Source: Nitrosomonas sp. (GTDB lineage Bacteria; Pseudomonadota; Gammaproteobacteria; Burkholderiales; Nitrosomonadaceae). From it: a stretch of DNA of 64,000 bases. Of this stretch, positions 17,219 to 36,401 are shown one piece after another. Numbering within the stretch: the stretch's first letter is position 1; each line of letters begins with the position of its first letter. The notes under the pieces were generated by a model. It was given only the letters and a program-made list of their open reading frames with translations. It was not told where the DNA came from and ran no database searches. A program made the position numbers and the translations under genes. The stretch spans positions 1,364,001 to 1,428,000 of the forward strand of contig JALDQW010000001.1 in the NCBI GenBank assembly GCA_031316255.1, written 5' to 3'.

Positions 17219-18541
17219 TTATCCTCGCAGCATATCATTAATCTGTTGCAGCACTGCTTCATCAAGCTCTCCCGCCTCCGCGCTCAAGCGTAATCGTGAC
17301 ATCAGATAGTTGTGGTAGGCCTTGGCCAGATCACGCCGGGCGGAGTAAAGCTGCTGCTGGGCGTTCAAAACATCGACTTCTGTTCGAACGCCGACTTCCT
17401 GCCCGAGCATTGTTGAATCGAGTTGCGTCTGGCTGGATACCAGGGCTTGCTTCAACGCTCTAACTTGTGCAATACCATTGGTTACATTGAGATATTGCTG
17501 TCTGACTTGCAACTTAACATTGCGGCGGAAATTTTCCAGATCATGGCGCGCTCTTTCCTGGTTGGCTATTGCTTCTCGCACTCTTGATTGCGTGCCGCCC
17601 CCTTGATATATTGGCAGATTCAATTGCAATCCGATGGACGCCGTTGTCAGGTCGCGGCCAATTCCTGTGAATTGTGCGCCAACGCCTGTTTGATCACTGT
17701 ATGCTGCAACCAGGTCCAAAGTCGGGAGATGCTGCGCCGCGTTTCTTTTGACTTCCTTGGCGGCCAGGTCATAGGCAGCTTGCTGGACTTTTAATGTAAA
17801 ATTTTGTTCTTCCGCGACTGCCACCCATTCATCCATACTGTCATAATGTAGACTCAGCAGATCGGCAGCAATTTCACGGCTACTCGCAAGCCGCTCAGGA
17901 AAACGGTTGATAATACCCTGCAGTGTGCGCTTACTGATTTCCAGTGCATTGCGTGCAGCAATTTCTTGTGACAAAGTCAGATCAAAGCGCGCCTGCGCTT
18001 CATTGGTATCGACGATTGTTGCAATGCCAACCTCAAAATTGCGTTTTGCCTGTTCCAGTTGTTTGAGAATTGCTTCTTTTTGCGCTTCAGCAACTTCGAC
18101 ATCAACCTGCGCATCAAGCACATCGAAATAAGCCTGGGCGACACGCAAAATCAAATCTTGCGCGGCGATTACAAATTGCGACTCAGCCTGGGATACCTCG
18201 GTTTTAGATTGCGCATAAATAATGAAATTCTCTAAACGGATAAGCGGTTGCGTTGCGGAAATAGTGACGCCACGGCTTTGAATGGTATTTGTAGTCGAAC
18301 CGAACTTGACTTCCTGGGCTTGACGAGTCGCTAACAAACTAATGTTAGGTAGAAACCCGGCTCGGCCCTGAACAATTTTTTCCTGCGCAGCCTGATAAGC
18401 TGACCGGGCAGATTGATACTGTGCATCCATCTCGAGCGCTTCCTGATAGACGTCCATTAAATTTGCAGCGCTGAGCAAAGCACTCGTAGAAGTGCCTGCC
18501 ATAAAAACAAGCAAAATAAATGCGTTACGCATGATTTTCAT
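17219..18541 (-). CDS. TolC-family outer membrane channel protein
   Basis: The 440-residue product has a signal peptide (about residues 1-26) and the internal duplication of long helices typical of TolC: LMDVYQEALEMDAQYQSARSAY and LRVAQAYFDVLDAQVDVEVAEAQ, repeated later as LQVRQQYLNVTNGIAQVRALKQAL. It forms the outer-membrane exit duct for type I secretion or RND pumps. The pcm-like gene is upstream on the same strand, an arrangement frequent in proteobacteria. This TolC could serve the peptide exporter at 28603-31998; that is inference. Confidence 0.9.
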   Translation of the reverse strand: MKIMRNAFILLVFMAGTSTSALLSAANLMDVYQEALEMDAQYQSARSAYQAAQEKIVQGRAGFLPNISLLATRQAQEVKFGSTTNTIQSRGVTISATQPLIRLENFIIYAQSKTEVSQAESQFVIAAQDLILRVAQAYFDVLDAQVDVEVAEAQKEAILKQLEQAKRNFEVGIATIVDTNEAQARFDLTLSQEIAARNALEISKRTLQGIINRFPERLASSREIAADLLSLHYDSMDEWVAVAEEQNFTLKVQQAAYDLAAKEVKRNAAQHLPTLDLVAAYSDQTGVGAQFTGIGRDLTTASIGLQLNLPIYQGGGTQSRVREAIANQERARHDLENFRRNVKLQVRQQYLNVTNGIAQVRALKQALVSSQTQLDSTMLGQEVGVRTEVDVLNAQQQLYSARRDLAKAYHNYLMSRLRLSAEAGELDEAVLQQINDMLRG

Positions 18542-23531: not shown

Positions 23532-23843
23532 ATGATTAACTGGGCACAAATATATGGTTTTGACTGGGATGAAGGTAATTCTCGCAAGAACATAGTGAAG
23601 CATGACGTTGGACAACTCGAAGCGGAGCAAGTGTTCTTTAACCAGCCAATCTTGATTTTGTCTGATTCTAAACATAGCCAAAGGGAAGCACGTTACCATG
23701 CGCTTGGCATTACCGATGATGCCCGATTGCTGCACGTTACCTTTACCCTACGAAATAATGGAAAATTGATTCGCATTATTTCCGCTCGTGATATGCACCG
23801 TAAAGAGAAATTTTTTTATGAACAAAACCAAAAAGATTCCTGA
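23532..23843 (+). CDS. brnT: BrnT-family toxin
   Basis: This 103-residue protein has the BrnT pattern: FDWDEGNSRKNIVKHDVG, AEQVFFNQPILILSDSKHS, REARYHALGITDDARLLHVTFTLR and IRIISARDMHRKEKFFY. BrnT folds like RelE and is a ribonuclease. A TTGTTT / TATGAT pair 16 bases apart at 23490-23517 is a plausible promoter directly ahead of the ATG. The antitoxin gene overlaps its 3' end, the usual toxin-first order for BrnTA. Confidence 0.92.
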   Translation: MINWAQIYGFDWDEGNSRKNIVKHDVGQLEAEQVFFNQPILILSDSKHSQREARYHALGITDDARLLHVTFTLRNNGKLIRIISARDMHRKEKFFYEQNQKDS

Positions 23844-24090
23844 TTTTAAAACAGAAGCTGAAGAGCGAGCTTTCTGGGAAAGCCATGATTCCAGTGATTA
23901 TGTTGACTGGTCCAGGGCTCAATCGACTTCTTTTCCCAACCTGAAACCATCAACCAAAACAATCTCGCTCAGATTACCTGAAGCGTTGTTGAATCGTATA
24001 AAGATTGAAGCAAATAAGCGTGATATGCCATATCAGTCTTTGATTAAGATCTGGCTCGCTAATGACGTAGAAAAAAGCCGTGGTTCTTGA
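23818..24090 (+). CDS. brnA: BrnA-family antitoxin
   Basis: This 90-residue protein starts at the ATG at 23818, inside the last codons of brnT. The N-terminal part (KIPDFKTEAEERAFWESHDSSDYVDW) is the BrnA toxin-binding region. The C-terminal part (KTISLRLPEALLNRIKIEANKRD) is a ribbon-helix-helix DNA-binding domain. It would bind BrnT and repress the operon. Confidence 0.92.
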   Translation: MNKTKKIPDFKTEAEERAFWESHDSSDYVDWSRAQSTSFPNLKPSTKTISLRLPEALLNRIKIEANKRDMPYQSLIKIWLANDVEKSRGS

Positions 24091-24510: not shown

Positions 24511-24679
24511 ATGGAAAGTGGAAAACTTGAAAAAATCAAGTCTAGCGATTCAAAAAATGAAGTAGTCGCCCGTGTACCAAAAGAACAATTAAAATCACTT
24601 TTTTATTTGTTTGCTGGTAAACCAGATTCGAGAATTCAAGTATTTGAAAGTGCAGTCCATCTTAAACCAAATGACATAA
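24511..24679 (+). pseudogene. Small gene of unknown function truncated by the IS5-family element
   Basis: The frame begins MESGKLEKIKSSDSKNEVVA and runs through KEQLKSLFYLFAGKPDSR to HLKPNDI, where the insertion sequence starts. Beyond the element, bases 26015-26083 encode FINVVSSLVAAWMAAKYFPP and a stop in a plausible continuing frame, which looks like a C-terminal membrane segment. I infer one former gene of about 80 codons split by the element, with a small loss at the junction. The function is unknown. Confidence 0.6.
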
Positions 24680-26014
24680 GGGCATCTCTAAAAATTGATA
24701 TTACAAGACAGGGTAATTCAGGAAGGGAAGCCATTTTTCATAGTTAGTGTATAATAACACATTGTTTATTATAGTTAATAGTCATATTCACTGATATAGG
24801 ATTCCATCATGCAATTCAGTTTTTTTGACCTTGAAAATCGCTATGAACAGCTAAGCAAGCTAAGAGATCCGCTTGAAGAACTGAATCGCATGATCGACTG
24901 GAATTTATTCGCTGATCTTCTCAGGGAGACGACTACGAAGCCTAGGAAAAGCGCGGCTGGTCGCAAACCCTTTGATCGGGTGATGCTATTCAAGATGCTG
25001 GTATTGCAAAGAATGCATAATCTGTCGGATGACCAGTTGGAGTATCAAGTACGGGATCGATTGAGTTTCATGCGTTTTTTGGGGCTTGATTTGGCGGGGG
25101 TGGTACCGGATGCAAAAACGATGTGGGCGTTTCGGGAGGAGTTGAAGGAGAATCAACTGATTGAACGGCTATTTGCGAGATTTGCTGAATGTTTACGGGA
25201 GCTGGATGTTGAGCTGAAGTCAGGTCAGATCATTGATGCAACTTTTGTGACGGTTCCCAAGCAACGTAATACGCGTGAGGAGAACAAGATCATCAAGGAA
25301 GGTGCGATTCCGATTGAATGGGGGCAAAATCCTCACAAGCTGGCACAAAAAGACATTGATGCGCGTTGGACGAAGAAGAACAACGAATCGTTTTATGGTT
25401 ACAAAGATCACGTGAATGTGGATCAGTGTACCAAGTTGATAACCCATGGGAATTTACATCAGCGGAAGTTCACGATAGCCAGGTTTTGGCAGAAGTGCTG
25501 CAATCCCCTAAAGAGGGAGGGACTGATGTTTACGCGGATTCAGCCTATCGCAGCGAAGCACAGGAAGAAATTCTGGCTACTTCTGGACACACGAGCCGCA
25601 TTCACGAAAAAGGTGCTCGCAATCATCCACTCACGGACACGCAAAAGTTTGGCAACAAAAAGAAATCACAGGTGCGCGCACGGGTTGAACATGTATTTGG
25701 TTCGATGACGAATGAACTGGGTGGAATCACTATTCGTACCATAGGGCTTATGAGAGCAAAAGTACAAATAGGCTTGCTCAACCTCGTTTACAACATTAAG
25801 CGTGTGGTGACGTTGATTCGCAAAAGATGTTTCAGTTTCGACAGGGTTATTACGCCCAGAATTGCCTAAAATAGGAAAAACGAGAGGATAACAACCCAAA
25901 ACGCCTTGAACTGAGCAATAATCAAATTCTTGAACAGAAAAATATCGGGAATCGAACTAATCGTTCCCCGGCTTGGAAAAATTCTCTTTATATAAGGTAT
26001 TTTTAGAGATGCCC
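24680..26014 (+). mobile_element. IS5-family insertion sequence, copy 1 (1335 bp)
   Basis: The ends are 16-bp inverted repeats GGGCATCTCTAAAAAT. A second copy with the same ends, same length and apparently the same sequence lies inverted at 33574-34908. The left flank is ATAA but the right flank is TTTA, so no target duplication is visible here, unlike copy 2. That suggests loss or rearrangement at the right junction. The transposase is frameshifted. Confidence 0.93.
24809..25869 (+). CDS. IS5-family transposase in two frames (copy 1)
   Basis: The first frame (24809-about 25445) gives FDLENRYEQL, GRKPFDRVMLFKMLVLQRMH, DDQLEYQVRDRLSFMRFLGL and the first catalytic Asp in IIDATFV. After a -1 shift near 25440 the second frame continues with TSAEVHDSQVLAEVL, the second Asp in VYADSAYRS and the Glu in RARVEHVFG, ending at 25869. 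The DDE triad is thus split over two frames. No classic slippery heptamer is seen at the crossover, so this is either a damaged gene or an unusual recoding site. Copy 2 has the same break. Confidence 0.88.
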
Positions 26015-26326
26015 TTTATTAATGTAGTTAGCAGTTTGGTTGCTGCATGGATGGCCGCAAAATATTTTCCACCAATTTCATGAAAAACTTCTTTCTAGAA
26101 TCTACCCACGAAATTCGGCGTCACGTCAGGTCTTGCATTGCAACCTTCAAGCAGCGTACGGCACTCCGGATGATGCAGGACGGGGACGGCATTTCAAGTT
26201 TAGCAAACCAGAATCCCGGCCGCCGATCCCAAGAGCCACATATCTATACTAACAGCTTGAGATACGACTTGTCATCCTGCAAAATCCAATGGTAGTCCTT
26301 AATTCCATTTGACCCCAATTCCACAC
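26015..26326. other. Stretch between IS5 copy 1 and the parDE operator
   Basis: The first 69 bases look like the 3' end of the gene split by the IS. The rest has no convincing gene; frames at 26040-26295 lack domains and ribosome sites. One copy of the dispersed motif, GTCAGGTCTTGCATTG, lies at 26125-26140. Confidence 0.4.
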
Positions 26327-26346
26327 AAATGAACATATGTTCATTT
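26327..26346. promoter_or_regulatory. Palindromic operator upstream of parDE
   Basis: AAATGAACATATGTTCATTT is a perfect 20-bp palindrome, followed by another half-site (TGTTCAT). It is placed just ahead of the extended -10 TGCTACAAT, about 50-70 bases before the antitoxin ATG. This is the expected binding site for autorepression by a ribbon-helix-helix antitoxin. Confidence 0.75.
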
Positions 26347-26398
26347 GTTCATGTCATGCTACAATTTTATTGTGATTAATAGTGCAGGGAGAAAGGAG

Positions 26399-26650
26399 AT
26401 GATCCGTTTATCTATCGATCTGACGCCAGAGCAACATCAAAAGATCAAAGCCATCGCTGCTATGCAAGGCAAATCAATAAAGGAATATGTACTGAATCAA
26501 ATTCTGCCCACATCCTCCGATGAAGAAATGGCATTGCAGGAATTAGAGGCTTTTCTGGATGAACGCGCTAAATCAGTACAGACTGGAAAGGTAAGCCAGA
26601 AATCGGTTAAAGAAATTTTTCAGGAAGTCTATAGTGAAAGCGCCAAGTAA
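26399..26650 (+). CDS. parD: ParD-like antitoxin
   Basis: The 83-residue protein starts at the ATG at 26399 behind AAAGGAG. The N-terminus MIRLSIDLTPEQHQKIKAIA and GKSIKEYVLNQ form a ribbon-helix-helix domain; the C-terminal helix (LEAFLDERAKSVQ) would bind the toxin. The stop overlaps the toxin's ATG (TAATG). It probably represses its own promoter at the palindrome 26327-26346. Confidence 0.9.
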   Translation: MIRLSIDLTPEQHQKIKAIAAMQGKSIKEYVLNQILPTSSDEEMALQELEAFLDERAKSVQTGKVSQKSVKEIFQEVYSESAK

Positions 26651-26964
26651 TGCCAGATTACAGACTCACTACGCATGCTGAACAAGATTTGAGAGACATT
26701 GCTCGTTACACGATAGATAAATGGGGAATGGCTCAGACTGAACGTTATGAGGAAATACTGTCAAAACGATTCCAAGTGATTGCGCAGGGAGTTGTTACAC
26801 CAAGAACACTTTTAAAAAGAAGACCTGATTTACTGTTTACGCATTGTGAACATCATTATATTTTCTACCTGCAATCTGAAAACAGTGCGAATCCAATAAT
26901 TGTAGCAGTGCTGCATGAACGTATGGATCTCATCCGAAGGCTCAAAAATCGATTGGTAACATAA
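26650..26964 (+). CDS. parE: ParE/RelE-family toxin
   Basis: This 104-residue protein has the ParE pattern YRLTTHAEQDLRDIARYTIDKWG, ERYEEILSKRF, CEHHYIFYLQ and IIVAVLHERMDLIRRL. The ParE members studied poison DNA gyrase; RelE members cut mRNA on the ribosome. The pairing with a ParD-type antitoxin favours the first. The gene overlaps the antitoxin by one base and looks intact. Confidence 0.92.
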   Translation: MPDYRLTTHAEQDLRDIARYTIDKWGMAQTERYEEILSKRFQVIAQGVVTPRTLLKRRPDLLFTHCEHHYIFYLQSENSANPIIVAVLHERMDLIRRLKNRLVT

Positions 26965-27089
26965 AGCTGGCACTGCCATGATGTTGCGAATTAATTGCGC
27001 ATTCAGGTCTTGCAATACAACTCGCATTCGACTGCCATCACTCAATAGGCACCCCGGCGCAATTGTCGTGCAGGCTAGAATAATCGAAT

Positions 27090-27463
27090 AACACGAATCC
27101 GATACGCGCCTCTGCATTGTTTACGCTTCTTGTCTCTCTGGTAGCGACAGTCTCGTTTGAGTGCTTTTCCCGGTAGAATGAAGTGTTCCGCTCACTTCAC
27201 TCTTGCCGCGATAACCGCGATCACATACCGCTTGGCGGGCCGCTTTGCCACGCGATGTTTCAACATGCTGAAGTATTTCCGGCAACGTATGGCTGTCATG
27301 CTGGTTTTGTTCATGGCTGACAACGCCGACGATGATATTGCTTCGCGCTGTACAGGCGATTGATGCCTTGCTGCGGCAGCGTCCTGCTGAGCTCCCGTAT
27401 CAAAATACCCGCAATGGTTCTCAACCGTTTCAGCGCACGCTTGGCCTTGGCTGTTTCTTGGCG
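27090..27463 (-). pseudogene. Decayed IS5/IS1182-type transposase fragment
   Basis: Reading the minus strand, pieces of a transposase unlike the two complete elements are recognisable: RALKRLRTIAGILIRELSRT, then after a gap NIIVGVVSHEQNQHDSHTLP and AVCDRGYRGKSEVSGT. A frame change then leads to PGKALKRDCRYQRDKKRKQC. These are the familiar blocks around the second catalytic Asp (DRGYRG) of such enzymes. The fragment has at least one internal deletion and one frameshift, and both ends are missing. No terminal repeats were found. Confidence 0.78.
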
Positions 27464-27468
27464 TCAGT

Positions 27469-27568
27469 TTTCACCCCTATAGAGCCAGTCCAATTTCACC
27501 ATAATGGAACCAGTGAAATTTCACTATAATAGAGCCACTTAATTTTCACCATAATGGAGCCATTCGAT
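27469..27568. repeat. Four 25-bp tandem repeats
   Basis: Four units of exactly 25 bp follow one another at 27469, 27494, 27519 and 27544, sharing TTTCACC-TATA/TAATG-GAGCCA with about 70-80 percent agreement. There are no spacers, so it is not a CRISPR. Similar series of binding sites occur at the ends of some multi-repeat transposons, so this may be the end of a lost element. The decayed transposase ends six bases away. Confidence 0.85.
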
Positions 27569-28193
27569 TTGGTCGCATTGGCTGGATCTAGGGTTCGGAT
27601 TTTTTGTCACTGCTGGTTATCTGTTGATTTTTTATCTCCATTTTGTCTAACCTGAAAATTGCACCAGTTGCTGGAATTTAAACGCCGAATTGTTTTGAAT
27701 TGAGCGTGCTCGCGACCGCAGGCGCAGTTATTCTGCGGCTAAGAGAGCATGTGCGTTCAATTTAAAACAAGGCAAGTTAAAAACCAGCAAGTTACACCGT
27801 GGGGACAAACTGTACTTTTTCATCATTTAACGAAATGTAATCATAATGACGATTACAAGCTAAAACCTAACGTACTGGTGCAATATTCAAGTTATCGCCG
27901 TTAACGAATTTTAAGTCCTCAGTTTTCTGAAAATTAAACGATATCTGATAACCACACAGTACCAGAATCACTTTCATCACTCAGGGCGTAGCAATGCTTT
28001 CATCACTATTAACGCCAAAACAGCAACGCAAATAGTTTTTCAACGGACTGTTAAAGGAAAATTAGGATTTATCGTCATGATGAAATGCTCTGGCCAACAT
28101 GTGAAGAAAATCACATTCTAAACATTCAACTTCAAGTATCTTTTACTGAACTTGCAATTATGCAAGTTAATTTTAACTAAATGGAGCATTATT
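27569..28193. other. Non-coding region upstream of the first leader peptide gene
   Basis: There is no gene-like frame. It contains a large interrupted palindrome (27690-27770) and A/T-rich sequence leading to the peptide gene. Promoters for the export cassette probably lie here, but no clear -35/-10 pair could be chosen by eye. Confidence 0.5.
27690..27770. repeat. Large interrupted palindrome
   Basis: The left arm TTGTTTTGAATTGAGCG pairs, with few mismatches, with the right arm GCGTTCAATTTAAAACAA. Inside, CCGCAG (27717-27722) pairs with CTGCGG. Further out, TTGCTGG near 27668 and CCAGCAA near 27783 also pair. It could be a REP-like or MITE-like relic, or a terminator of whatever lay upstream. 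Confidence 0.65.
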
Positions 28194-28364
28194 ATGAATG
28201 AATTAACAATTAACGAACTTGAAAGTGTAGCCGGCGGTGCTTACTATTTTAGATGGTCAACAGCCCCGACGCGTACGTCAGATGAAGGAGTCGTAATGAA
28301 GGGTATTGAGCTTAAAGATGGCGGCTTCTATGATCACGACGAGGGCACATGTAATCCGTATTAG
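28194..28364 (+). CDS. Double-glycine leader peptide 1 (bacteriocin-like precursor)
   Basis: The 56-residue peptide starts at the ATG behind a GGAG site. Residues 1-15, MNELTINELESVAGG, match the double-glycine leader recognised by C39 peptidases (hydrophobic and acidic positions ending in VAGG). Cleavage would release a 41-residue, Tyr-, Asp- and Gly-containing cargo beginning AYYFRWSTAP and ending GTCNPY, with one cysteine. The HlyD adaptor and C39 exporter genes follow at 28603 and 29860. The cargo function (bacteriocin, signal or other) is unknown. Confidence 0.85.
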   Translation: MNELTINELESVAGGAYYFRWSTAPTRTSDEGVVMKGIELKDGGFYDHDEGTCNPY

Positions 28365-28375
28365 AGCTAAGCAAC

Positions 28376-28398
28376 GCCCCTTCTATGCCAGAGGGGGC
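28376..28398 (+). terminator. Hairpin between peptide 1 and the exporter genes
   Basis: GCCCCTTCT and AGAGGGGGC form a nine-base-pair stem (one G:T pair) with a five-base loop, 12 bases after the peptide stop. Only a weak T-rich stretch follows. It may act as a partial terminator, giving more peptide mRNA than exporter mRNA. Confidence 0.5.
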
Positions 28399-28602
28399 TT
28401 AAGAGTCTTGTGTTAAATTCATGGAACATGGAGATTGTATCACTTCTTTATCAATCAGTTACTTTATAAAACTTATTACTTGCACGTGATGTGGTGATGT
28501 GCAAATGCCCAGTCTTTTTTTTGTTTGTAGAAATCCATATTTTTGCGGCGCACTTTGTTAAACTGCGTGCGTGTGCATCGTAGATTTTTGTAAAACCTGT
28601 TC

Positions 28603-29850
28603 ATGAATAAAAAATTATTCCGATCCGAGGCTTTAACACATCGAGAAGAGTGCCTGTACGGCGAAGTGCTTATTGCCCGATCACTCACTATCCGGTTTCT
28701 GGTGTGGATCTCTGTACTGTTTGCTGTCGCAGTTGCCTGTTTTATATTCTGGGGTCAACACACCCGGAAAGAGCATGTCTTGGGCTATCTAATACCAACA
28801 CAAGGGATGATCAGGCTCTTCACTCCCCAAACCGGGATTGTTTTGGAAAAATTTGTCACTGAAGGTCAAATCGTCAAAAAGGGTGAACGATTGTTGGTTA
28901 TATCCAGCGAACGGGCAACCGAGATTACCGGGGAAGCGCATGCAACTATGCTTTCAGAAATCAGGCAACGGCGTGACAGTCATATACGAGAACTCAGTAA
29001 ACAACAAGAAATCGATATATTTACGGCCGATAGCATCGCTGGTCGTATTCGTGGATTAGAAACTGAAATACGTCAGGCAGAAGCTCAATTGACGCTTTTA
29101 TCTAAACGTGTGGTGAGCGCCGAACGGAATGTGGGGCGCCATGAGAAATTGCTGAAGCAGGGATTTATCTCTGAAGCCGCTGTGCAACAAAAGGAAGAGG
29201 AATTAATCGATCAACAAAACCTATTGATTCAAGTACAGCAGAATATTACCAGCCTGACCCGAGAACTAGATACAGCACATATGGAACTTTCCTCTTCCAG
29301 ACTAAGAGGTGCCAATAATAGCGCGGCGATAGAAAGGCAAATCTCAGAACTCGAACAACAATTAACAGAAGCGGATACACGCCGCAGTATTGTACTGACC
29401 GCGCCGGCAGATGGCACCGTTACCACGATTCTGACTGAAACAGGACAGACAGTTAATCCGGAACAGCTGTTACTTTCTATTTTGCCTGTTGGCGCTCAGC
29501 TACAGGCGCAGTTACTGGTTCCAACACGTGCAGTGGGTTTTATTAAACCAACCCAGCAAGTTTCATTGCGTTACCAGGCATTTCCTTATCAGCGCTTCGG
29601 GCATCATCTGGGTGAAATTGTAGAAGTTGGACGAACCGCGATCCAACCCAATGAATCCAGCTTACCTGTAAACATTCAAGAACCGGTATATCGCGTGACG
29701 GTTCGCTTGCCCCAACAACAAATTCAGGCTTACGGTCAGGCAATGCAACTCCAGGCAGGCATGTTACTGGATGCAGACATTCACATTGATCGGCGTCGCC
29801 TGATCGAATGGATTTTTGACCCACTATTATCTATTAGCGGTCGACTATAA
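28603..29850 (+). CDS. HlyD-type membrane fusion protein of the peptide exporter
   Basis: This 415-residue adaptor has a single N-terminal membrane helix (about residues 25-50) and a first lipoyl-like half (VLEKFVTEGQIVKKGERLLVI). A long coiled coil follows (about 110-260, including RVVSAERNVGRHEKLLKQGFISEAAVQQKEEEL), then the second lipoyl half (ILTAPADGTVTTI) and a C-terminal beta barrel. It resembles adaptors that pair with C39 ABC exporters in Gram-negatives (as in microcin export). It lies ten bases before the transporter gene. Confidence 0.93.
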   Translation: MNKKLFRSEALTHREECLYGEVLIARSLTIRFLVWISVLFAVAVACFIFWGQHTRKEHVLGYLIPTQGMIRLFTPQTGIVLEKFVTEGQIVKKGERLLVISSERATEITGEAHATMLSEIRQRRDSHIRELSKQQEIDIFTADSIAGRIRGLETEIRQAEAQLTLLSKRVVSAERNVGRHEKLLKQGFISEAAVQQKEEELIDQQNLLIQVQQNITSLTRELDTAHMELSSSRLRGANNSAAIERQISELEQQLTEADTRRSIVLTAPADGTVTTILTETGQTVNPEQLLLSILPVGAQLQAQLLVPTRAVGFIKPTQQVSLRYQAFPYQRFGHHLGEIVEVGRTAIQPNESSLPVNIQEPVYRVTVRLPQQQIQAYGQAMQLQAGMLLDADIHIDRRRLIEWIFDPLLSISGRL

Positions 29851-29859
29851 GCTGCCGGT

Positions 29860-31998
29860 ATGCTTAACTTTTCTCTAAGGCAACGCGCGCCCGTCATCCT
29901 GCAAAATGAAGCAGCAGAGTGTGGATTGGCTTGCTTGGCAATGGTAGCCGGTTATCATGGTCATCAGATTGATCTCGCCACTTTGCGCGCGCGTCATACT
30001 ATTTCACTACGTGGTTCGACACTTGCCGATTTGATACAACTTGCTGGACTACTCAAATTTAACTCGCGTCCCTTGCGACTTGATCTTGAACACATGCCTG
30101 AGCTCAAATTGCCCTGCGTGCTCCATTGGGACTTCAATCATTTTGTCGTGCTCACTAAGGTATATAGCAATCGTGTGTTAATACAAGATCCGGCGATTGG
30201 TGAACGCGAACTGCCAATAGCGGAATTTTCCAAGCATTTTACGGGCATCGCCTTAGAGTTGACACCGACAAATGAATTTATACCTCGCGTTGATATTCGC
30301 AAGGTCAAGCTGACGTCTCTTATCGGACGTATGCAGGGTATAGGTAGTACCGTGGCACAGGTGTTGATATTGGCCTTGGTGCTACAGTTCTTTGCTATCC
30401 TGGCGCCCTTCTATATGCAGTGGATTGTTGATCAGGCGTTAGTAACGCAAGATTATGATCTTGTTACAGTGCTTGGAATAGGGTTTTTGTTGCTTGCCGT
30501 GGTTCAAGCTAGCGTAACTGCTTTACGCGCATGGATTTTGATGGTGCTGGGCACAACGCTTAACCTGCAAATGATCTCTAATATGTTCCAGCATTTAATT
30601 CGGTTGCCGATGAGCTGGTTTAACAAACGTCATATTGGCGATATCGTATCTCGTTTCGAATCGCTTAATGTGATTCAACGCACACTGACAACCGGGTTTC
30701 TGGAGGCTCTAATCGACGGGGTAATGGTCATTGTTACTTTCTGCGTGATGTTGTTCTATAGTCTTCAACTCACACTGGTTGCCTTGATCGCGGCAAGCTT
30801 ATATGCATTATTGCGTTTTGCCCTTTATCGCCCTTTACGTCTGGCAACTGAAGAACATATTGTGCGCGGCGCAAAACAACAAAGTCACTTTATAGAAACC
30901 GCACGCGGAATGCAAAGCATCAAGCTTTTTGCTCACGAAGTGCCTCGTACAGCTGCCTGGCAAAATCTGGTTGTCGATCAATATAATGCAAGCATTCGCA
31001 CTCAACGTTTGGGTATTCTATATCAGGGTTTAAACGGCCTTTTGTTCGGCATCGAAAATGTAATCACAATCTGGCTGGGTGCTTTGCTTGTGCTGGATAC
31101 AGCAAATGGTGCTGGCTTCTCGATAGGGATGCTATTTGCCTTTGTGGCGTATAAAACACAGTTTGTACAACGGGTTGCAGCATTGATAGAAAAAGGTATA
31201 GAGCTGCGCATGCTCGGACTGCATACTGAACGTGTGGGTGATATTGCGCTCACTATCCCCGAACCGCATGATGATTCAAGCATCTCCAAATCGATTCCGC
31301 TTGAAGGACGTATCGAGGTCAAGAATGTAACTTTCCGGCATACGGAAACAGACCCTTTGGTGTTACAAGATGTGAGTTTCAGTGTGCAAGCTGGCGAGTC
31401 GATAGCTATTGTTGGTCCATCAGGTTGCGGCAAGACAACTTTGGTTAAACTAATGCTTGGCCTTTTGCATCCTAATGACGGTACAATTGAAGTGGATGGC
31501 CAATCACTTAGCCGCATTGGCGTAAAGTACTATCGCAACCACGTTGCCAGTGTAATGCAGGATGATCAACTGTTTGCCGGGTCTATTTCTGAAAATATTT
31601 GTTTTTTTGACCCCCGACCTGATTTCGAACGTATCGAAGCTTGCACTCGACTTGCTTCAATCCATGATGACATTGCCGCCATGCCGATGCAGTACAACAC
31701 GCTGGTAGGTGACATGGGAACGGTGCTTTCAGGCGGTCAAAAACAACGGTTACTTCTAGCACGCGCATTGTATCGTCAACCAAAGATTTTATTTCTTGAT
31801 GAAGCAACAAGCCATCTGGATGTGGCACGCGAAAGCAGTGTGAACGAGGCTATCAGCAAACTGAAATTGACGCGAATTATTGTTGCACACCGTCCCGAGA
31901 CTATAGCGAGTGCGGATAGAGTGATAACGCTCAGTGATGGAAAGGTTATAAGTGATGTTTCTGCTATTCATTCTATTCAAAGTAAGGAGACAAATTGA
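29860..31998 (+). CDS. C39-peptidase ABC transporter (bacteriocin-type exporter)
   Basis: The protein has 712 residues in three parts. The N-terminal C39 cysteine protease (1-140) has Cys21 in QNEAAECGLACLAM, His94 in HWDFNHFVVL and Asp110 in IQDPAIG, so all catalytic residues are present. The membrane domain spans about 160-440. The ATPase domain (about 480-700) has Walker A GPSGCGKTT from residue 519, signature LSGGQKQR and Walker B ILFLDEATSHLD. It should cut leaders after the double glycine and pump the cargo out with HlyD and a TolC duct. The three leader peptides nearby are the obvious substrates. Confidence 0.96.
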   Translation: MLNFSLRQRAPVILQNEAAECGLACLAMVAGYHGHQIDLATLRARHTISLRGSTLADLIQLAGLLKFNSRPLRLDLEHMPELKLPCVLHWDFNHFVVLTKVYSNRVLIQDPAIGERELPIAEFSKHFTGIALELTPTNEFIPRVDIRKVKLTSLIGRMQGIGSTVAQVLILALVLQFFAILAPFYMQWIVDQALVTQDYDLVTVLGIGFLLLAVVQASVTALRAWILMVLGTTLNLQMISNMFQHLIRLPMSWFNKRHIGDIVSRFESLNVIQRTLTTGFLEALIDGVMVIVTFCVMLFYSLQLTLVALIAASLYALLRFALYRPLRLATEEHIVRGAKQQSHFIETARGMQSIKLFAHEVPRTAAWQNLVVDQYNASIRTQRLGILYQGLNGLLFGIENVITIWLGALLVLDTANGAGFSIGMLFAFVAYKTQFVQRVAALIEKGIELRMLGLHTERVGDIALTIPEPHDDSSISKSIPLEGRIEVKNVTFRHTETDPLVLQDVSFSVQAGESIAIVGPSGCGKTTLVKLMLGLLHPNDGTIEVDGQSLSRIGVKYYRNHVASVMQDDQLFAGSISENICFFDPRPDFERIEACTRLASIHDDIAAMPMQYNTLVGDMGTVLSGGQKQRLLLARALYRQPKILFLDEATSHLDVARESSVNEAISKLKLTRIIVAHRPETIASADRVITLSDGKVISDVSAIHSIQSKETN

Positions 31999-32020
31999 TT
32001 TGCATCCCAAGGAGAAAATT

Positions 32021-32206
32021 ATGGTTATTCAGAATCAAAGTTCTAGTCTCATTATTTGCCTATATCTTTTTACTTTAAATTCCAACAGTTACTCGTTCTC
32101 AACAGGTTCAAATCTTCTGATTGCAAATTATCAATTTATTATTTACTATTGGCAAATGGTTAGAAATGTCCTTATAACCAGTAAGTTGTTTGGAATCAAC
32201 AAATAA
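32021..32206 (+). CDS. Small hydrophobic ORF directly behind the exporter (possible immunity protein)
   Basis: A 61-codon frame starts at an ATG with a strong AAGGAG site eight bases ahead, 22 bases after the exporter stop. It has hydrophobic stretches (SLIICLYLFTL and LIANYQFIIYYW), no double-glycine leader and no similarity I recognise. The position and hydrophobicity would fit an immunity protein; that is inference. It could also be a chance frame in A/T-rich DNA. Confidence 0.45.
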   Translation: MVIQNQSSSLIICLYLFTLNSNSYSFSTGSNLLIANYQFIIYYWQMVRNVLITSKLFGINK

Positions 32207-32220
32207 TGAGGTGAATACGC

Positions 32221-32406
32221 ATGAACACAAAAACTGAAAATTTGAACGTGCCCTTTTCTAAACCTCAAGCAGAGGCAACTGAAAAAAAATTAGCCCCAAC
32301 AACCTCTGTAGTCGAATTAACAATGAACGAAGTAACAACTATCAGCGGGGGTGCAGGAGGCCTTTTTTTCACCTCCCCCCTCACGATGCCCAAGGCTTTC
32401 GCTTAG
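32221..32406 (+). CDS. Double-glycine leader peptide 2
   Basis: The 61-residue peptide begins MNTKTENLNV and has a long leader ending VVELTMNEVTTISGG (Gly43-Gly44), matching the C39 recognition pattern. Cleavage there leaves a 17-residue cargo AGGLFFTSPLTMPKAFA. A GAGGTG ribosome site precedes the ATG by seven bases. It lies 14 bases after the small hydrophobic ORF and is probably on the exporter transcript. The cargo has no cysteine. Confidence 0.82.
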   Translation: MNTKTENLNVPFSKPQAEATEKKLAPTTSVVELTMNEVTTISGGAGGLFFTSPLTMPKAFA

Positions 32407-32621
32407 AGAAAGGTTATTGACACAAGAATAAGGGTAAACAGCATAGCTCTGGCAAACCGTGGATCGAAATGGAGAAGTGCTTGATGTGTATCTCTGCAAG
32501 CTTACAGGGGTGGGACTACCGCTAAGTTTTTTGCAAGCTTGAACCTTATGAATGTAAGTATAGTTTTTTAGATTATTATTTTTTTTATCTGTATGTAAAT
32601 CAACAAATTAAAGGATTAATT

Positions 32622-32789
32622 ATGAATACAAAACTCGACAATCCAAACACACTCTTTTCAGAATCAAATAATGAAAACGTTGTCAATGAAATTGAAATTG
32701 TTGATGAGAACGAATTAAAGTATGTAAGTGGTGGTGGCGTTGCTTTATTTGGCTCAACTTATACGCAAACACACATTTCGGGTAATTAA
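32622..32789 (+). CDS. Double-glycine leader peptide 3
   Basis: A 55-residue peptide starts MNTKLDNPNTLFSES, behind AAAGGA. The leader ends IVDENELKYVSGG (Gly37-Gly38), leaving a 17-residue cargo GVALFGSTYTQTHISGN. The MNTK start and cargo length are shared with peptide 2, while the cargo sequence is different, so the two look like diverged paralogues. It is short and easily missed by gene finders. Function unknown. Confidence 0.78.
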   Translation: MNTKLDNPNTLFSESNNENVVNEIEIVDENELKYVSGGGVALFGSTYTQTHISGN

Positions 32790-32961
32790 TTTTAGCTCCG
32801 ATTTTATCTGCAAGCAGTTGAAATTTGATCAAGGGAAAACAGCACTTATCTGTAAATCATCCACAAGATTGGTCTTGTTTTCCCTCTGCTAACAAAAATT
32901 GGGATCATGCATTGCAACATTCACAGGTTCTACTATCAAATTTCACAATAAACCAGCAAGT

Positions 32962-33209
32962 TCAAGTTTCATTCCTCAGGTCAAGCCGGTTTTCTATTCT
33001 TTCCAAACGTTCCATAATTCTGTCTATTGATGCCTGTTGGCGAGCGCCAGTTCATCACCGACAATGATTTCTCGACGCACTAGGGATAAACTGTTATCCA
33101 AAGAGGATAGCCTGAGCTTTACTTCTTTCATATCATCGGCAATGAGATCGACACGCCCCCGAATATGTCTAAGGTGCTCCAAAACAAGATTCTGACTGTC
33201 TTCGCTCAT
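32962..33209 (-). pseudogene. Frameshifted small coiled-coil protein gene
   Basis: The first 61 codons give MSEDSQNLVLEHLRHIRGRV, DLIADDMKEVKLRLSSLDNS and GDELALANRHQ then a stop. A change of frame at that point gives ASIDRIMERLERIENRLDLR and a stop at 32962-32964, which is the natural ending of this commonly seen heptad-rich protein. So one base was gained or lost near 33030. The family is of unknown function and is often found beside mobile or toxin-antitoxin genes. Confidence 0.72.
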
Positions 33210-33573
33210 AGTTCTTTCTCATATAAAGGGTGAAAAGCTGATGCCTCATAAAAGTATAGGAAAAATAAATACTTTTAGTATTATGAAAGTACCAAAAACG
33301 TAATCTGCCGTCAAATATTTGAATCCTCATTCAGCCCCCGCATTCAACCAGTCTGACTCGCAGTGGTACCATCAGGTCTTGCATTGATACATTCTCAGAT
33401 AATCGTCAGGCCTATTGTGTAGGCTATAATTCTAGATCCGAACACCCCGCAGTATAACCGGATTGGTTGTCTGCTTACACCGAAACTACTTTACAATACG
33501 CTTGCCAAATACTTGTCTGCCGGTTAAATAACCTACGCCAAAGCCGGGGTTTACCTATCATAAATTATCTTAT
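33210..33573. other. Gene-free stretch before IS5 copy 2
   Basis: No gene is seen. One copy of the dispersed motif (ATCAGGTCTTGCATTGA) is at 33371-33387. The target duplication TTAT of the insertion sequence is at 33570-33573. Confidence 0.5.
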
Positions 33574-34908
33574 GGGCATCTCTAAAAATACCTTATATAA
33601 AGAGAGTTTTTCCAAGCCGGGGAACGATTAGTTCGATTCCCGATATTTTTCTGTTCAAGAATTTGATTATTGCTCAGTTCAAGGCGTTTTGGGTTGTTAT
33701 CCTCTCGTTTTTCCTATTTTAGGCAATTCTGGGCGTAATAACCCTGTCGAAACTGAAACATCTTTTGCGAATCAACGTCACCACACGCTTAATGTTGTAA
33801 ACGAGGTTGAGCAAGCCTATTTGTACTTTTGCTCTCATAAGCCCTATGGTACGAATAGTGATTCCACCCAGTTCATTCGTCATCGAACCAAATACATGTT
33901 CAACCCGTGCGCGCACCTGTGATTTCTTTTTGTTGCCAAACTTTTGCGTGTCCGTGAGTGGATGATTGCGAGCACCTTTTTCGTGAATGCGGCTCGTGTG
34001 TCCAGAAGTAGCCAGAATTTCTTCCTGTGCTTCGCTGCGATAGGCTGAATCCGCGTAAACATCAGTCCCTCCCTCTTTAGGGGATTGCAGCACTTCTGCC
34101 AAAACCTGGCTATCGTGAACTTCCGCTGATGTAAATTCCCATGGGTTATCAACTTGGTACACTGATCCACATTCACGTGATCTTTGTAACCATAAAACGA
34201 TTCGTTGTTCTTCTTCGTCCAACGCGCATCAATGTCTTTTTGTGCCAGCTTGTGAGGATTTTGCCCCCATTCAATCGGAATCGCACCTTCCTTGATGATC
34301 TTGTTCTCCTCACGCGTATTACGTTGCTTGGGAACCGTCACAAAAGTTGCATCAATGATCTGACCTGACTTCAGCTCAACATCCAGCTCCCGTAAACATT
34401 CAGCAAATCTCGCAAATAGCCGTTCAATCAGTTGATTCTCCTTCAACTCCTCCCGAAACGCCCACATCGTTTTTGCATCCGGTACCACCCCCGCCAAATC
34501 AAGCCCCAAAAAACGCATGAAACTCAATCGATCCCGTACTTGATACTCCAACTGGTCATCCGACAGATTATGCATTCTTTGCAATACCAGCATCTTGAAT
34601 AGCATCACCCGATCAAAGGGTTTGCGACCAGCCGCGCTTTTCCTAGGCTTCGTAGTCGTCTCCCTGAGAAGATCAGCGAATAAATTCCAGTCGATCATGC
34701 GATTCAGTTCTTCAAGCGGATCTCTTAGCTTGCTTAGCTGTTCATAGCGATTTTCAAGGTCAAAAAAACTGAATTGCATGATGGAATCCTATATCAGTGA
34801 ATATGACTATTAACTATAATAAACAATGTGTTATTATACACTAACTATGAAAAATGGCTTCCCTTCCTGAATTACCCTGTCTTGTAATATCAATTTTTAG
34901 AGATGCCC
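33574..34908 (-). mobile_element. IS5-family insertion sequence, copy 2 (1335 bp, inverted)
   Basis: It has the same 16-bp terminal repeats and length as copy 1, in the opposite orientation. The flanks TTAT (33570-33573 and 34909-34912) form a direct 4-bp target duplication, so this copy arrived by simple transposition. The encoded protein frames on both strands are identical to those of copy 1, implying recent duplication. Only 13 bases separate its right duplication copy and the IS701 element's target site. Confidence 0.95.
33719..34779 (-). CDS. IS5-family transposase in two frames (copy 2)
   Basis: This is the same as the copy 1 transposase: the first part (34779 to about 34145) carries the N-terminal domain and first catalytic Asp (IIDATFV). 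The second part (ending at 33719) carries VYADSAYRS and RARVEHVFG in a frame shifted by -1. The break is at the same place as in copy 1, so it pre-dates the duplication of the element. Confidence 0.88.
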
Positions 34909-34925
34909 TTATGGTTTTTAATTAG

Positions 34926-36401
34926 TTCTACTTTGTCAGATTACCCAAAAGCCACTTTTCGCCTAGCAAAAGACTTTTTAGCGCTGAGCCGTCGCCGGTG
35001 CCGCTTATGAATAACATCTGCCAGATCCTCGGTGGTAAGTTGTCTTTTTGGCAGCATGTGCGCTAATGCGGTCACCAGGTCATTGAAGGATAACATCGGC
35101 CATTGCTTGCGCCCAAGCATCTTTTGCTTGACCAAGAATAGCGTTGCCAGCATGACTAGCGCCATGTGATGATGCCATGCATCCCACCGGCGCACTTGAT
35201 AATCAGCCATGCCACATTCGCTTTTTGCTTCATGAAAGCTGTGCTCAATGAAGAAACGCTGCGCCTGTACTTGCGCCAGTTGCTGTAACGGTGTTTCAAG
35301 TGACGCGTTGGATAAGCTATAATGCGATATTTCGCTAGCGCCAACCTCCCGCTTTGCCAGCAAGTGCCAGCGATGCGCTTGTTTCTCGCTGCCATCCCAT
35401 ACCCATACAAATGCATGAAGATATTCCGCTTCCAGCATACCTTTCTCGCCTTCGCGCAGTTTAATGCGCCGCCATACTGCATCCGGCTGCTCTGATACCC
35501 ATTGATCAACACGTATCGCCTCAGATTGTGCTTTCAGGCGTTTCGGTTGCCTGCCACGGCTATTCCAGGCAGGAATGCCCGGTTTTGGGTCTTCAAGATA
35601 AACCATCTGCCGACAGTGAACATCAGCGACAAATGTGCAGCCAAGTTTATCAACACCACGCAAGAAAGCAGGATCCTTGCCATAGCCGCCATCAATGCCG
35701 ACATAACCAAAACGCACACCGCGTTGTTTGGCTGTTTCGATCATTGATAATGCAATCTCGCATTTGCTTTGATAATACTGGCATGCCTCAGGTATTGCTG
35801 CTTTCTTGCAACGATCCGAATCGCTCATCCAATGTTGTGGCAAATACAGGCGCGCATCAATCAAACTGGCCATGCTGTTTTGGCACAAACTGGCAAATAC
35901 ACCAACCTGACAATTGTCTACCTTACCAAGACGGCCATTCCATTGTCGGGAAACACCTGCTGATGATTCGCCTTTCTTCGCAAAAGCGCTTTCATCGATA
36001 ATCAAAACAGCAGCAGAACCACCCAACAACGCATCCGTCTCAATCGCAATCTGCTCGCCAAATCCATTCCAGTCAATCGCGTCTGATGTCAGCATGTGTT
36101 GCATCGCCTGGTGGTCAACTTCATTGACTTCGCCCATGCGTAACATATTTGCTCGTTCAGATTGAAACAGTCCACGCAGGTAGCCATAGAATGTCGCTGA
36201 CGCATCGCGCGTCGCCGATACAAAAAATGATGAAAATAACGATAAATGTGCGCTAAGCGCTTCTGGAAGCCCCTGAAGGGCAAATTGGAGTGACCGTTTA
36301 GTATTTTCACGACATGATCGTGATTAATAATTATTAAACAAAGTGTTATTATACATCAGTTTGATACACTTTTGGGGTCATTTGAATCTGACAAAGTAGA
36401 A
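34926..36401 (-). mobile_element. IS701-family insertion sequence (1476 bp)
   Basis: Perfect 17-bp terminal repeats TTCTACTTTGTCAGATT (34926-34942) and the complement (36385-36401) are flanked by the 4-bp duplication TTAG (34922-34925 and 36402-36405), the YTAR-type target known for IS701. The transposase fills the element, and its stop lies within the left repeat. Its clean ends mean recent insertion. Confidence 0.93.
34941..36146 (-). CDS. IS701-family transposase
   Basis: The frame from ATG 36146 encodes 401 residues with the IS701 signature IIDESAFAKKGESSAGVSRQ (first catalytic Asp), YVGIDGGYGKDPAFL (second Asp) and FIEHSFHEAKSECGMADYQ (Glu). About 40 further residues typical of the family (FFVSATRDASATFYGYLRGL, then FQSERAN) are encoded in frame upstream to about 36270, but that open stretch has no ATG, GTG or TTG. 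The real start may therefore need a frame change near 36290, or the N-terminus is damaged. Confidence 0.9.
   Translation of the reverse strand: MLRMGEVNEVDHQAMQHMLTSDAIDWNGFGEQIAIETDALLGGSAAVLIIDESAFAKKGESSAGVSRQWNGRLGKVDNCQVGVFASLCQNSMASLIDARLYLPQHWMSDSDRCKKAAIPEACQYYQSKCEIALSMIETAKQRGVRFGYVGIDGGYGKDPAFLRGVDKLGCTFVADVHCRQMVYLEDPKPGIPAWNSRGRQPKRLKAQSEAIRVDQWVSEQPDAVWRRIKLREGEKGMLEAEYLHAFVWVWDGSEKQAHRWHLLAKREVGASEISHYSLSNASLETPLQQLAQVQAQRFFIEHSFHEAKSECGMADYQVRRWDAWHHHMALVMLATLFLVKQKMLGRKQWPMLSFNDLVTALAHMLPKRQLTTEDLADVIHKRHRRRLSAKKSFARRKVAFG

Follow-up and report, generated by a model that had tools for sequence, protein, structure and literature searches.

The 64,000-nucleotide stretch of a Nitrosomonas sp. 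genome analysed here (hereafter the window; positions 1,364,001 to 1,428,000 of contig JALDQW010000001.1, assembly GCA_031316255.1, and part of a single 3.74-Mb contig) contains a C39 peptidase-containing ABC exporter (PCAT), an HlyD-type adaptor and three small genes, one upstream of the exporter and two downstream. This locus raises the following question: are the small genes genuine precursors of exported peptides and, if so, are these peptides weapons, signals, or substrates of a modifying enzyme? An earlier note, made from the sequence alone, had read the five genes as a peptide export cassette with three double-glycine precursors. The genes were recovered at the same coordinates when the reading frames were re-derived, and the reading is supported by the exporter domains, the leader tests, the alignment with the solved protease domain 6mpz and the ribosome-binding sites. 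Thus, the cassette is probably a dedicated peptide processing and secretion system, PCAT type I, working like a class II microcin system.

The exporter has the features of the PCAT/AMS family, an N-terminal C39 domain (Cys-His-Asp) followed by the membrane and ATPase domains of an ABC transporter; the Pfam models Peptidase_C39, ABC_membrane and ABC_tran each match at E <1e-34, far over the cut-off. In an alignment with 6mpz, a double-glycine protease domain of known structure (E 1.2e-24), its Cys21, His94 and Asp110 match identical residues, and they are invariant across seven aligned exporters, the window exporter included. These results agree with the previous claim of an intact C39 exporter with its catalytic triad. 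Microcin exporters are encoded by cvaB and mchF, and plasmid genes so annotated match the window exporter at 40.4-41.5% identity (among the 25 of 1014 matches listed). When the whole exporter was compared with the PDB, the top matches were P-glycoproteins, covering the ABC part only, and C39-bearing matches ranked lower; full-length matches with the C39 domain included ComA (8hf4) and the ABC-type bacteriocin transporter 4ry2, which is the PCAT1 of PMC8277102. The adaptor gene ends 9 nt before the exporter gene, and its product scores 140 bits against TIGR01843, under the cut-off of 208.65. The TolC cut-off is passed by two genes of the genome, the better of which lies in the window (Table 1).

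Could the three small frames be chance or decayed ones, with the exporter serving something else? Such a possibility would be consistent with the lack of any cargo conservation found, with the location of the block between two insertion sequence (IS) copies, and with the borderline codon score of precursor 2. It is largely excluded by the leader scores. A 15-position leader matrix was built from 36 leaders of other loci, hand-picked from regular-expression lists, one for each near-identical group; none came from the window, so the test is independent of the window leaders. Scored over the open frames of the window, it placed precursors 1, 2 and 3 at ranks 1, 2 and 3 among 43,780 positions (34.2, 28.6 and 18.5 bits, respectively; best other position, 9.0), while the training leaders, each scored with itself left out, ranged from 14.2 to 42.9 bits. 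A leader profile run over the 3.74-Mb genome matched at four sites, with E between 3.6e-4 and 0.0203 (precursor 1, 3.6e-4; precursor 2, 0.0053; precursor 3, 0.020), the fifth match having E 2.99; this profile comprises 27 leaders including the genome's own four, and so is not an independent test. The four sites are the three window precursors and one precursor adjoining the second C39 exporter of the genome. Each precursor is preceded by a purine-rich ribosome-binding site, as judged by eye, and the codon scores (0.197, 0.122 and 0.224 for precursors 1, 2 and 3) lie in the coding range, barely so for precursor 2, the 5th percentile being 0.114 in frame and the 95th percentile 0.091 out of frame. 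Precursors 1 and 2 have leaders that are similar at the DNA level too (41 nt, 73%). We thus regard chance or decay as very improbable, and the three precursors claimed by the earlier note, with leaders ending in VAGG, ISGG and VSGG and cargos of 41, 17 and 17 residues, stand as described.

In all three leaders, positions -15, -12, -7 and -4 are hydrophobic, and position -8 is Glu. The substrate rule for PCATs is Leu(-12)-X3-Glu(-8)-Leu(-7) (PMC6363468, PMC8277102), and the leaders fit it as L-E-L, L-E-V and V-E-L, with V for L once in each of precursors 2 and 3. Judging from the family, the C39 domain would recognize each leader via Leu or Val at -12, Glu at -8 and Leu or Val at -7 and would cut it after the double glycine; the exporter, the HlyD protein and TolC would then release cargos of 41, 17 and 17 residues. 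The cut site of precursor 2 is uncertain, because a second GG lies three residues downstream (SGG-AGG-LFF).

The cargos differ in character. That of precursor 1 has 41 residues, a computed isoelectric point of 4.6 and one Cys; those of precursors 2 and 3, both of 17 residues, are hydrophobic (grand average of hydropathy, GRAVY, 0.78; isoelectric point 8.8) and near neutral (0.04 and 6.7), respectively. The computed neutral monoisotopic masses of the unmodified cargos are 4675.106 for the 41-mer, and 1754.907 and 1751.848 for the 17-mers. None of the cargos matched a family in Pfam or NCBIfam. The leader of precursor 1 matches the NCBIfam RiPP_CCRG-2 leader domain NF033456 (25.5 bits, cut-off 24), a model that spans the leader only, in 18 positions, and precursors 2 and 3 do not match it; the CCRG-2 family was reported from cyanobacteria, and Bradyrhizobium and Nostoc were noted to have similar precursors (PMC8120280). 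The leader of precursor 3 resembles that of lactococcin G-beta, below the cut-off (E 0.0042). Precursors 2 and 3 are related and stand in tandem, sharing the MNTK start and LF after the double glycine. Two-peptide (class IIb) bacteriocins require both of their precursors and carry GxxxG in the cargos; this motif is absent from all three cargos of the window.

Orthologous exporters (E <=1e-130, 75-85% identity) were found in 13 of the 124 other genomes of the family, all of them from the same genus, and all 13 loci were fetched (fetched loci bear L-numbers). The window cassette resembles these loci in the exporter, in the order of the HlyD and exporter genes and in the leader type; it differs in the cargos, in the partner gene, which is present in 11 of the 13, and in the site, which is another one in nine. 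Double-glycine small genes adjoin the exporter in 12 of the 13 loci, with unrelated cargos; in the exception (L029) the contig stops immediately upstream of that gene. A TolC homolog lies in the fetched stretch in six of the 13, two of the six being partial. Regular-expression scanning for double-glycine genes gave at least one match in 48 of 80 loci, some plainly spurious. Matches lying far away from the exporter, or on the antisense strand of a larger gene, were set aside by eye. The scanning also misses real precursors, with no match in L074 and L075 and the second double-glycine gene of L026 overlooked.

The conservation check proposed in the earlier note, for leaders and cargos, thus gave a divided answer: the exporter, the leader type and the arrangement recur (12 of 13), and for the cargos the search of the 124 genomes found no relatives. 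Every match of the window precursors outside their own genome had E of at least 0.0297. Each query did recover itself, and since the first pass gave from 0 to 7 candidates per genome, peptides as short as these could have weak relatives that the search passed over. When the precursors were compared by tblastn with 167 loci, only weak matches were seen (best E 0.004, to a locus with a 231-aa frame); outside the family the cargos were compared only with fetched loci. Together with the Pfam and NCBIfam results, this agrees with the previous statement that the cargos have no recognized homology. From clade to clade within the genus, the exporter is kept with different cargos, a pattern to be expected if the peptides serve in competition.

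Since related loci keep the exporter but carry different cargos, and since the cvaB- and mchF-annotated genes match the exporter as given above, we consider an antibacterial purpose the likeliest one: a bacteriocin- or microcin-like inhibition of related bacteria, with the two 17-mers perhaps acting together, is favoured, although slightly less firmly than the export function itself. The main alternative is that the peptides are signals sensed by neighbours of the same species. Two cargos are as short as 17 residues, no immunity gene is supported, and PCATs export peptides of both kinds (PMC7018657), all of which would suit signalling. Against it, the sense frames of at least 90 aa between the IS copies encode ParD, ParE, the HlyD protein and the exporter, so that no gene for a dedicated regulator or receptor is seen among them, as the earlier note had stated of regulators; besides, signals sensed within the species sit poorly with cargos for which the 124 other family genomes yielded no relative. 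We therefore hold signalling to be unlikely. ParD itself is an antitoxin, and the ParD/ParE pair is not thought to be a component of the export cassette.

Partner genes in the orthologous loci suggest another alternative, namely, that the cargos are ribosomally synthesized and post-translationally modified peptides (RiPPs) whose enzyme is encoded elsewhere, or that the cassette is a remnant which has lost its enzyme. In seven loci (L030-L036) a 345-352-aa protein is encoded between the precursor and the adaptor, assigned to the radical-SAM proteins by Pfam for L030 and L036 (the two tested) and otherwise by homology; in three (L026-L028), there is a 144-aa protein with conserved cysteines; and in one (L025), a 375-aa MvdC/MvdD-like ATP-grasp protein, with its Pfam score over and its NCBIfam scores under the cut-offs, accompanies two precursors with near-identical leaders. 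The short contig L024 (4.85 kb) bears one precursor on the opposite strand, with no enzyme seen. On the exporter tree, with labels on 21 of 25 rows (L073, L077, L080 and L084 left unlabelled), partner genes switch from one kind to another at least five times. Conversely, there is no radical-SAM or ATP-grasp frame in the window cassette, and nothing in the relatives' loci resembles the window cargos significantly. As for a maturase elsewhere in the genome, the search with the relatives' radical-SAM protein gave a best match of E 1.9e-6 at 27% identity, hence none close, and those with the ATP-grasp and 144-aa proteins gave no matches, an empty answer that has little weight, as these searches had no positive control; the candidate was set aside. 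Modified cargos thus seem less probable still than signals. The earlier note had seen no modification enzyme, and none has emerged, so the cargos, as far as gene content can tell, are probably unmodified.

How close, then, is the cassette to known systems? Microcin loci have five parts, namely, precursor, immunity, PCAT, fusion protein and TolC, and class II microcins have cargos of 60-90 residues and leaders of 15-18 residues ending in GG or GA (PMC10233263). Four of the five parts are found here, the fifth, immunity, being unsupported. Similarly to microcin V (CvaAB-TolC), the window has a C39-ABC exporter (40.4-40.5% identical to the cvaB-annotated plasmid genes within the 25 of 1014 matches listed), an HlyD adaptor, a genomic TolC and double-glycine precursors, with a 15-residue leader in precursor 1; it differs from the microcin V type in having three precursors with cargos of 41, 17 and 17 residues, in leaders of 44 and 38 residues in precursors 2 and 3, and in having no supported immunity gene. 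The exporter itself has its nearer matches (50-85%) in Nitrosomonas and other Beta- and Gammaproteobacteria, ahead of the microcin V type. Pneumococcal blp and rtg loci likewise combine a PCAT with several double-glycine peptides and vary between strains (PMC7018657, PMC6422914), but they are Gram-positive and have dedicated regulators, so the resemblance is one of logic only.

The sole frame considered for immunity is 32021-32206, which has a good ribosome-binding site; its codon score (-0.028) is non-coding and its G+C is 0.29, so it is retained only as a weak candidate for an immunity protein. The earlier note had seen no classical immunity gene here, in agreement with our result. The blp loci carry immunity genes. 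Double-glycine bacteriocins of Bacteroides that lack an immunity protein are mentioned in PMC10233263.

Several observations weigh against the microcin-like reading: the lack of a supported immunity gene; cargos shorter, and leaders of precursors 2 and 3 longer, than those of class II microcins; the codon score of precursor 2, barely in the coding range; promoter and terminator scans with no excess over the shuffled expectation; and the sharing of cargos within clades (nearly the same cargo in L030-L033 and L035, and a common one in L027 and L028), so that fast change is not seen in all cargos, a poorer fit to an arms race. Because immunity is unsupported and the cargo size is outside the range, we do not file the cassette as a class II microcin.

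The chromosomal site provides a further view. In nine of the 13 relatives (L025-L028, L030-L033, L035), the cassette is flanked by panB and folK; in L029 only the folK side is visible, L024 is too short for a call, and in L034 and L036 neither gene lies within the fetched stretch. In the genome of the window, pcnB, folK, panB and panC stand next to one another and the frames of folK and panB are 57 bases apart, hence the panB-folK site is empty. The window cassette is situated approximately 122 kb from it, between identical inverted IS copies. A composite transposon was considered and rejected: TTAT stands directly on both sides of the GGGCATC ends of the right copy and looks like that copy's own target duplication, the left copy lacks such a pair, and by eye there is no direct repeat in the outer flanks; thus, movement of the whole block in one piece is not supported.

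On the exporter tree, the window exporter pairs with L073, from the contig of L024 (support 100/99; the pair is also recovered in a quicker 34-row tree), and this pair is nested within the Nitrosomonas exporters (15 rows, 97/94). More distant exporters adjoin a 144-aa gene in three Methylomonas and one Rhodocyclaceae genomes (L085, L089, L090, L092), and a radical-SAM gene in four other proteobacterial ones (L088, L094, L099, L110). Given the repeated changes of partner gene on the tree, the exporter lineage persists while the neighbouring module changes. We tentatively suggest, as something short of likely, that Nitrosomonas has a fixed PCAT/HlyD chassis in which the cargo and its maturation gene are swapped as a module (plain peptides, radical-SAM, ATP-grasp, or the 144-aa Cys-rich protein), mostly at panB-folK, and that the window represents a maturase-free, unmodified mini-bacteriocin set located off-site.

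Table 1. Features of the window, and genes for the 144-aa Cys-rich protein in fetched loci (locus:positions).
Feature	Positions	Strand	Remarks
Precursor 1	28194-28364	+	56 aa; 15-residue leader MNELTINELESVAGG (VAGG); 41-residue cargo with one Cys
HlyD-type membrane fusion protein	28603-29850	+	415 aa; HlyD_3 4.4e-17
C39 peptidase-containing ABC exporter (PCAT)	29860-31998	+	712 aa; Cys21, His94, Asp110
Precursor 2	32221-32406	+	61 aa; 44-residue leader (ISGG); 17-residue cargo
Precursor 3	32622-32789	+	55 aa; 38-residue leader (VSGG); 17-residue cargo
61-aa hydrophobic frame, weak immunity-protein candidate	32021-32206	+	strong AAGGAG ribosome-binding site; coding unsupported
9-bp G+C-rich hairpin just 3' of precursor 1	28376-28398	+	without long T run
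TolC-type outer-membrane channel gene	17219-18541	-	321.9 bits, cut-off 225.15
IS copy, left arm	24675-26014	+	identical inverted copy at 33574-34913
IS copy, right arm	33574-34913	-	100% complementary to left arm across 1340 nt
ParD/ParE toxin-antitoxin pair	26345-26964	+	within IS-flanked block
144-aa genes	L075:4831-5265, L074:4809-5243, L076:4831-5265, L085:5162-5596		
144-aa genes	L089:5256-5690, L090:5256-5690, L092:5256-5690		

The intergenic gaps are 238 nt between precursor 1 and the adaptor and 222 nt between the exporter and precursor 2. The hairpin in the first of them is a possible 3' stabilizer or attenuator, its region (28365-28440) folding with a weak z of -1.39; at the gathering score, no RNA family was found in 26000-34000. 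Elsewhere in the window, three tandem repeats with 25-nt spacing (TTTCACCATAATGGAGCCA-like) at 27469-27562 are perhaps a former IS end, and at 23532-24090 a BrnT-type toxin gene is followed by a 100-aa frame, a possible antitoxin.

The 144-aa gene was observed upstream of the adaptor in seven of 82 clustered loci. Its product has eight invariant cysteines (positions 9, 66, 71, 81, 101, 107, 118 and 121), and the members tested have no match in Pfam or NCBIfam; the predicted fold is too poor for a structure search (mean predicted local distance difference test score, pLDDT, 47.9). From its sequence and position it is a possible new maturation or immunity factor. Two other clusters were dropped: cluster 6, one member of which was tested, is the housekeeping enzyme MnmG, and cluster 4, antisense over the place of the adaptor, was taken as an artefact.

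Some of the related loci are of interest in themselves. The radical-SAM-type gene of L030 (4303-5589) and those of L031-L036 adjoin a precursor whose cargo is of a conserved W(L/W)IRGIP type, and related GIPWP-type cargos occur in L088, L094 and L099. At L025:9318-11000, two near-identical leaders with different cargos are followed by the MvdC/MvdD-like ATP-grasp gene, likely a graspetide locus in Nitrosomonas. Exporter loci L107, L119, L123, L129, L131 and L134 have short cargos with LPKGGW-like motifs, perhaps with a Lys-Trp crosslink by analogy with streptide.

The second C39 exporter of the genome (G000:C1:1900695-1902782) is 51% identical to the first and has its own HlyD-like gene. Its precursor (L037:7487-7639, minus strand) has a 22-residue cargo rich in His, Cys and Trp, which looks metal-binding, and scores 24.3 against NF033456 (cut-off 24); among the 124 other family genomes, no convincing relative of the peptide emerged, the best match (E 0.012) lying in a frame that contains a stop. 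A 401-aa transposase gene of one kind is found both beside this exporter and at 34941-36146 of the window.

Cassettes of C39 and HlyD proteins with double-glycine peptides are already an established kind (PMC10233263). The literature search, which covered few subscription papers, found no paper in which a Nitrosomonas system exporting double-glycine peptides is described, in line with the earlier note, which was aware of no described system with this set in ammonia oxidizers. The double-glycine survey of Dirix and colleagues (2004), cited in PMC8939145, may list Nitrosomonas candidates. Of interest are the exact peptides and, in ammonia oxidizers, a single exporter lineage behind which cargo modules are exchanged. 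If the tentative suggestion of a fixed chassis is true, the window would hold a mini-bacteriocin set of a kind for which that search found no description in these bacteria. The relatives point to a family of 144-aa Cys-rich proteins that deserves study, and as several peptide chemistries stand behind almost one exporter, its tolerance is directly testable. For a genus important in nitrification and wastewater treatment, three exact peptides, with their masses, can now be looked for.

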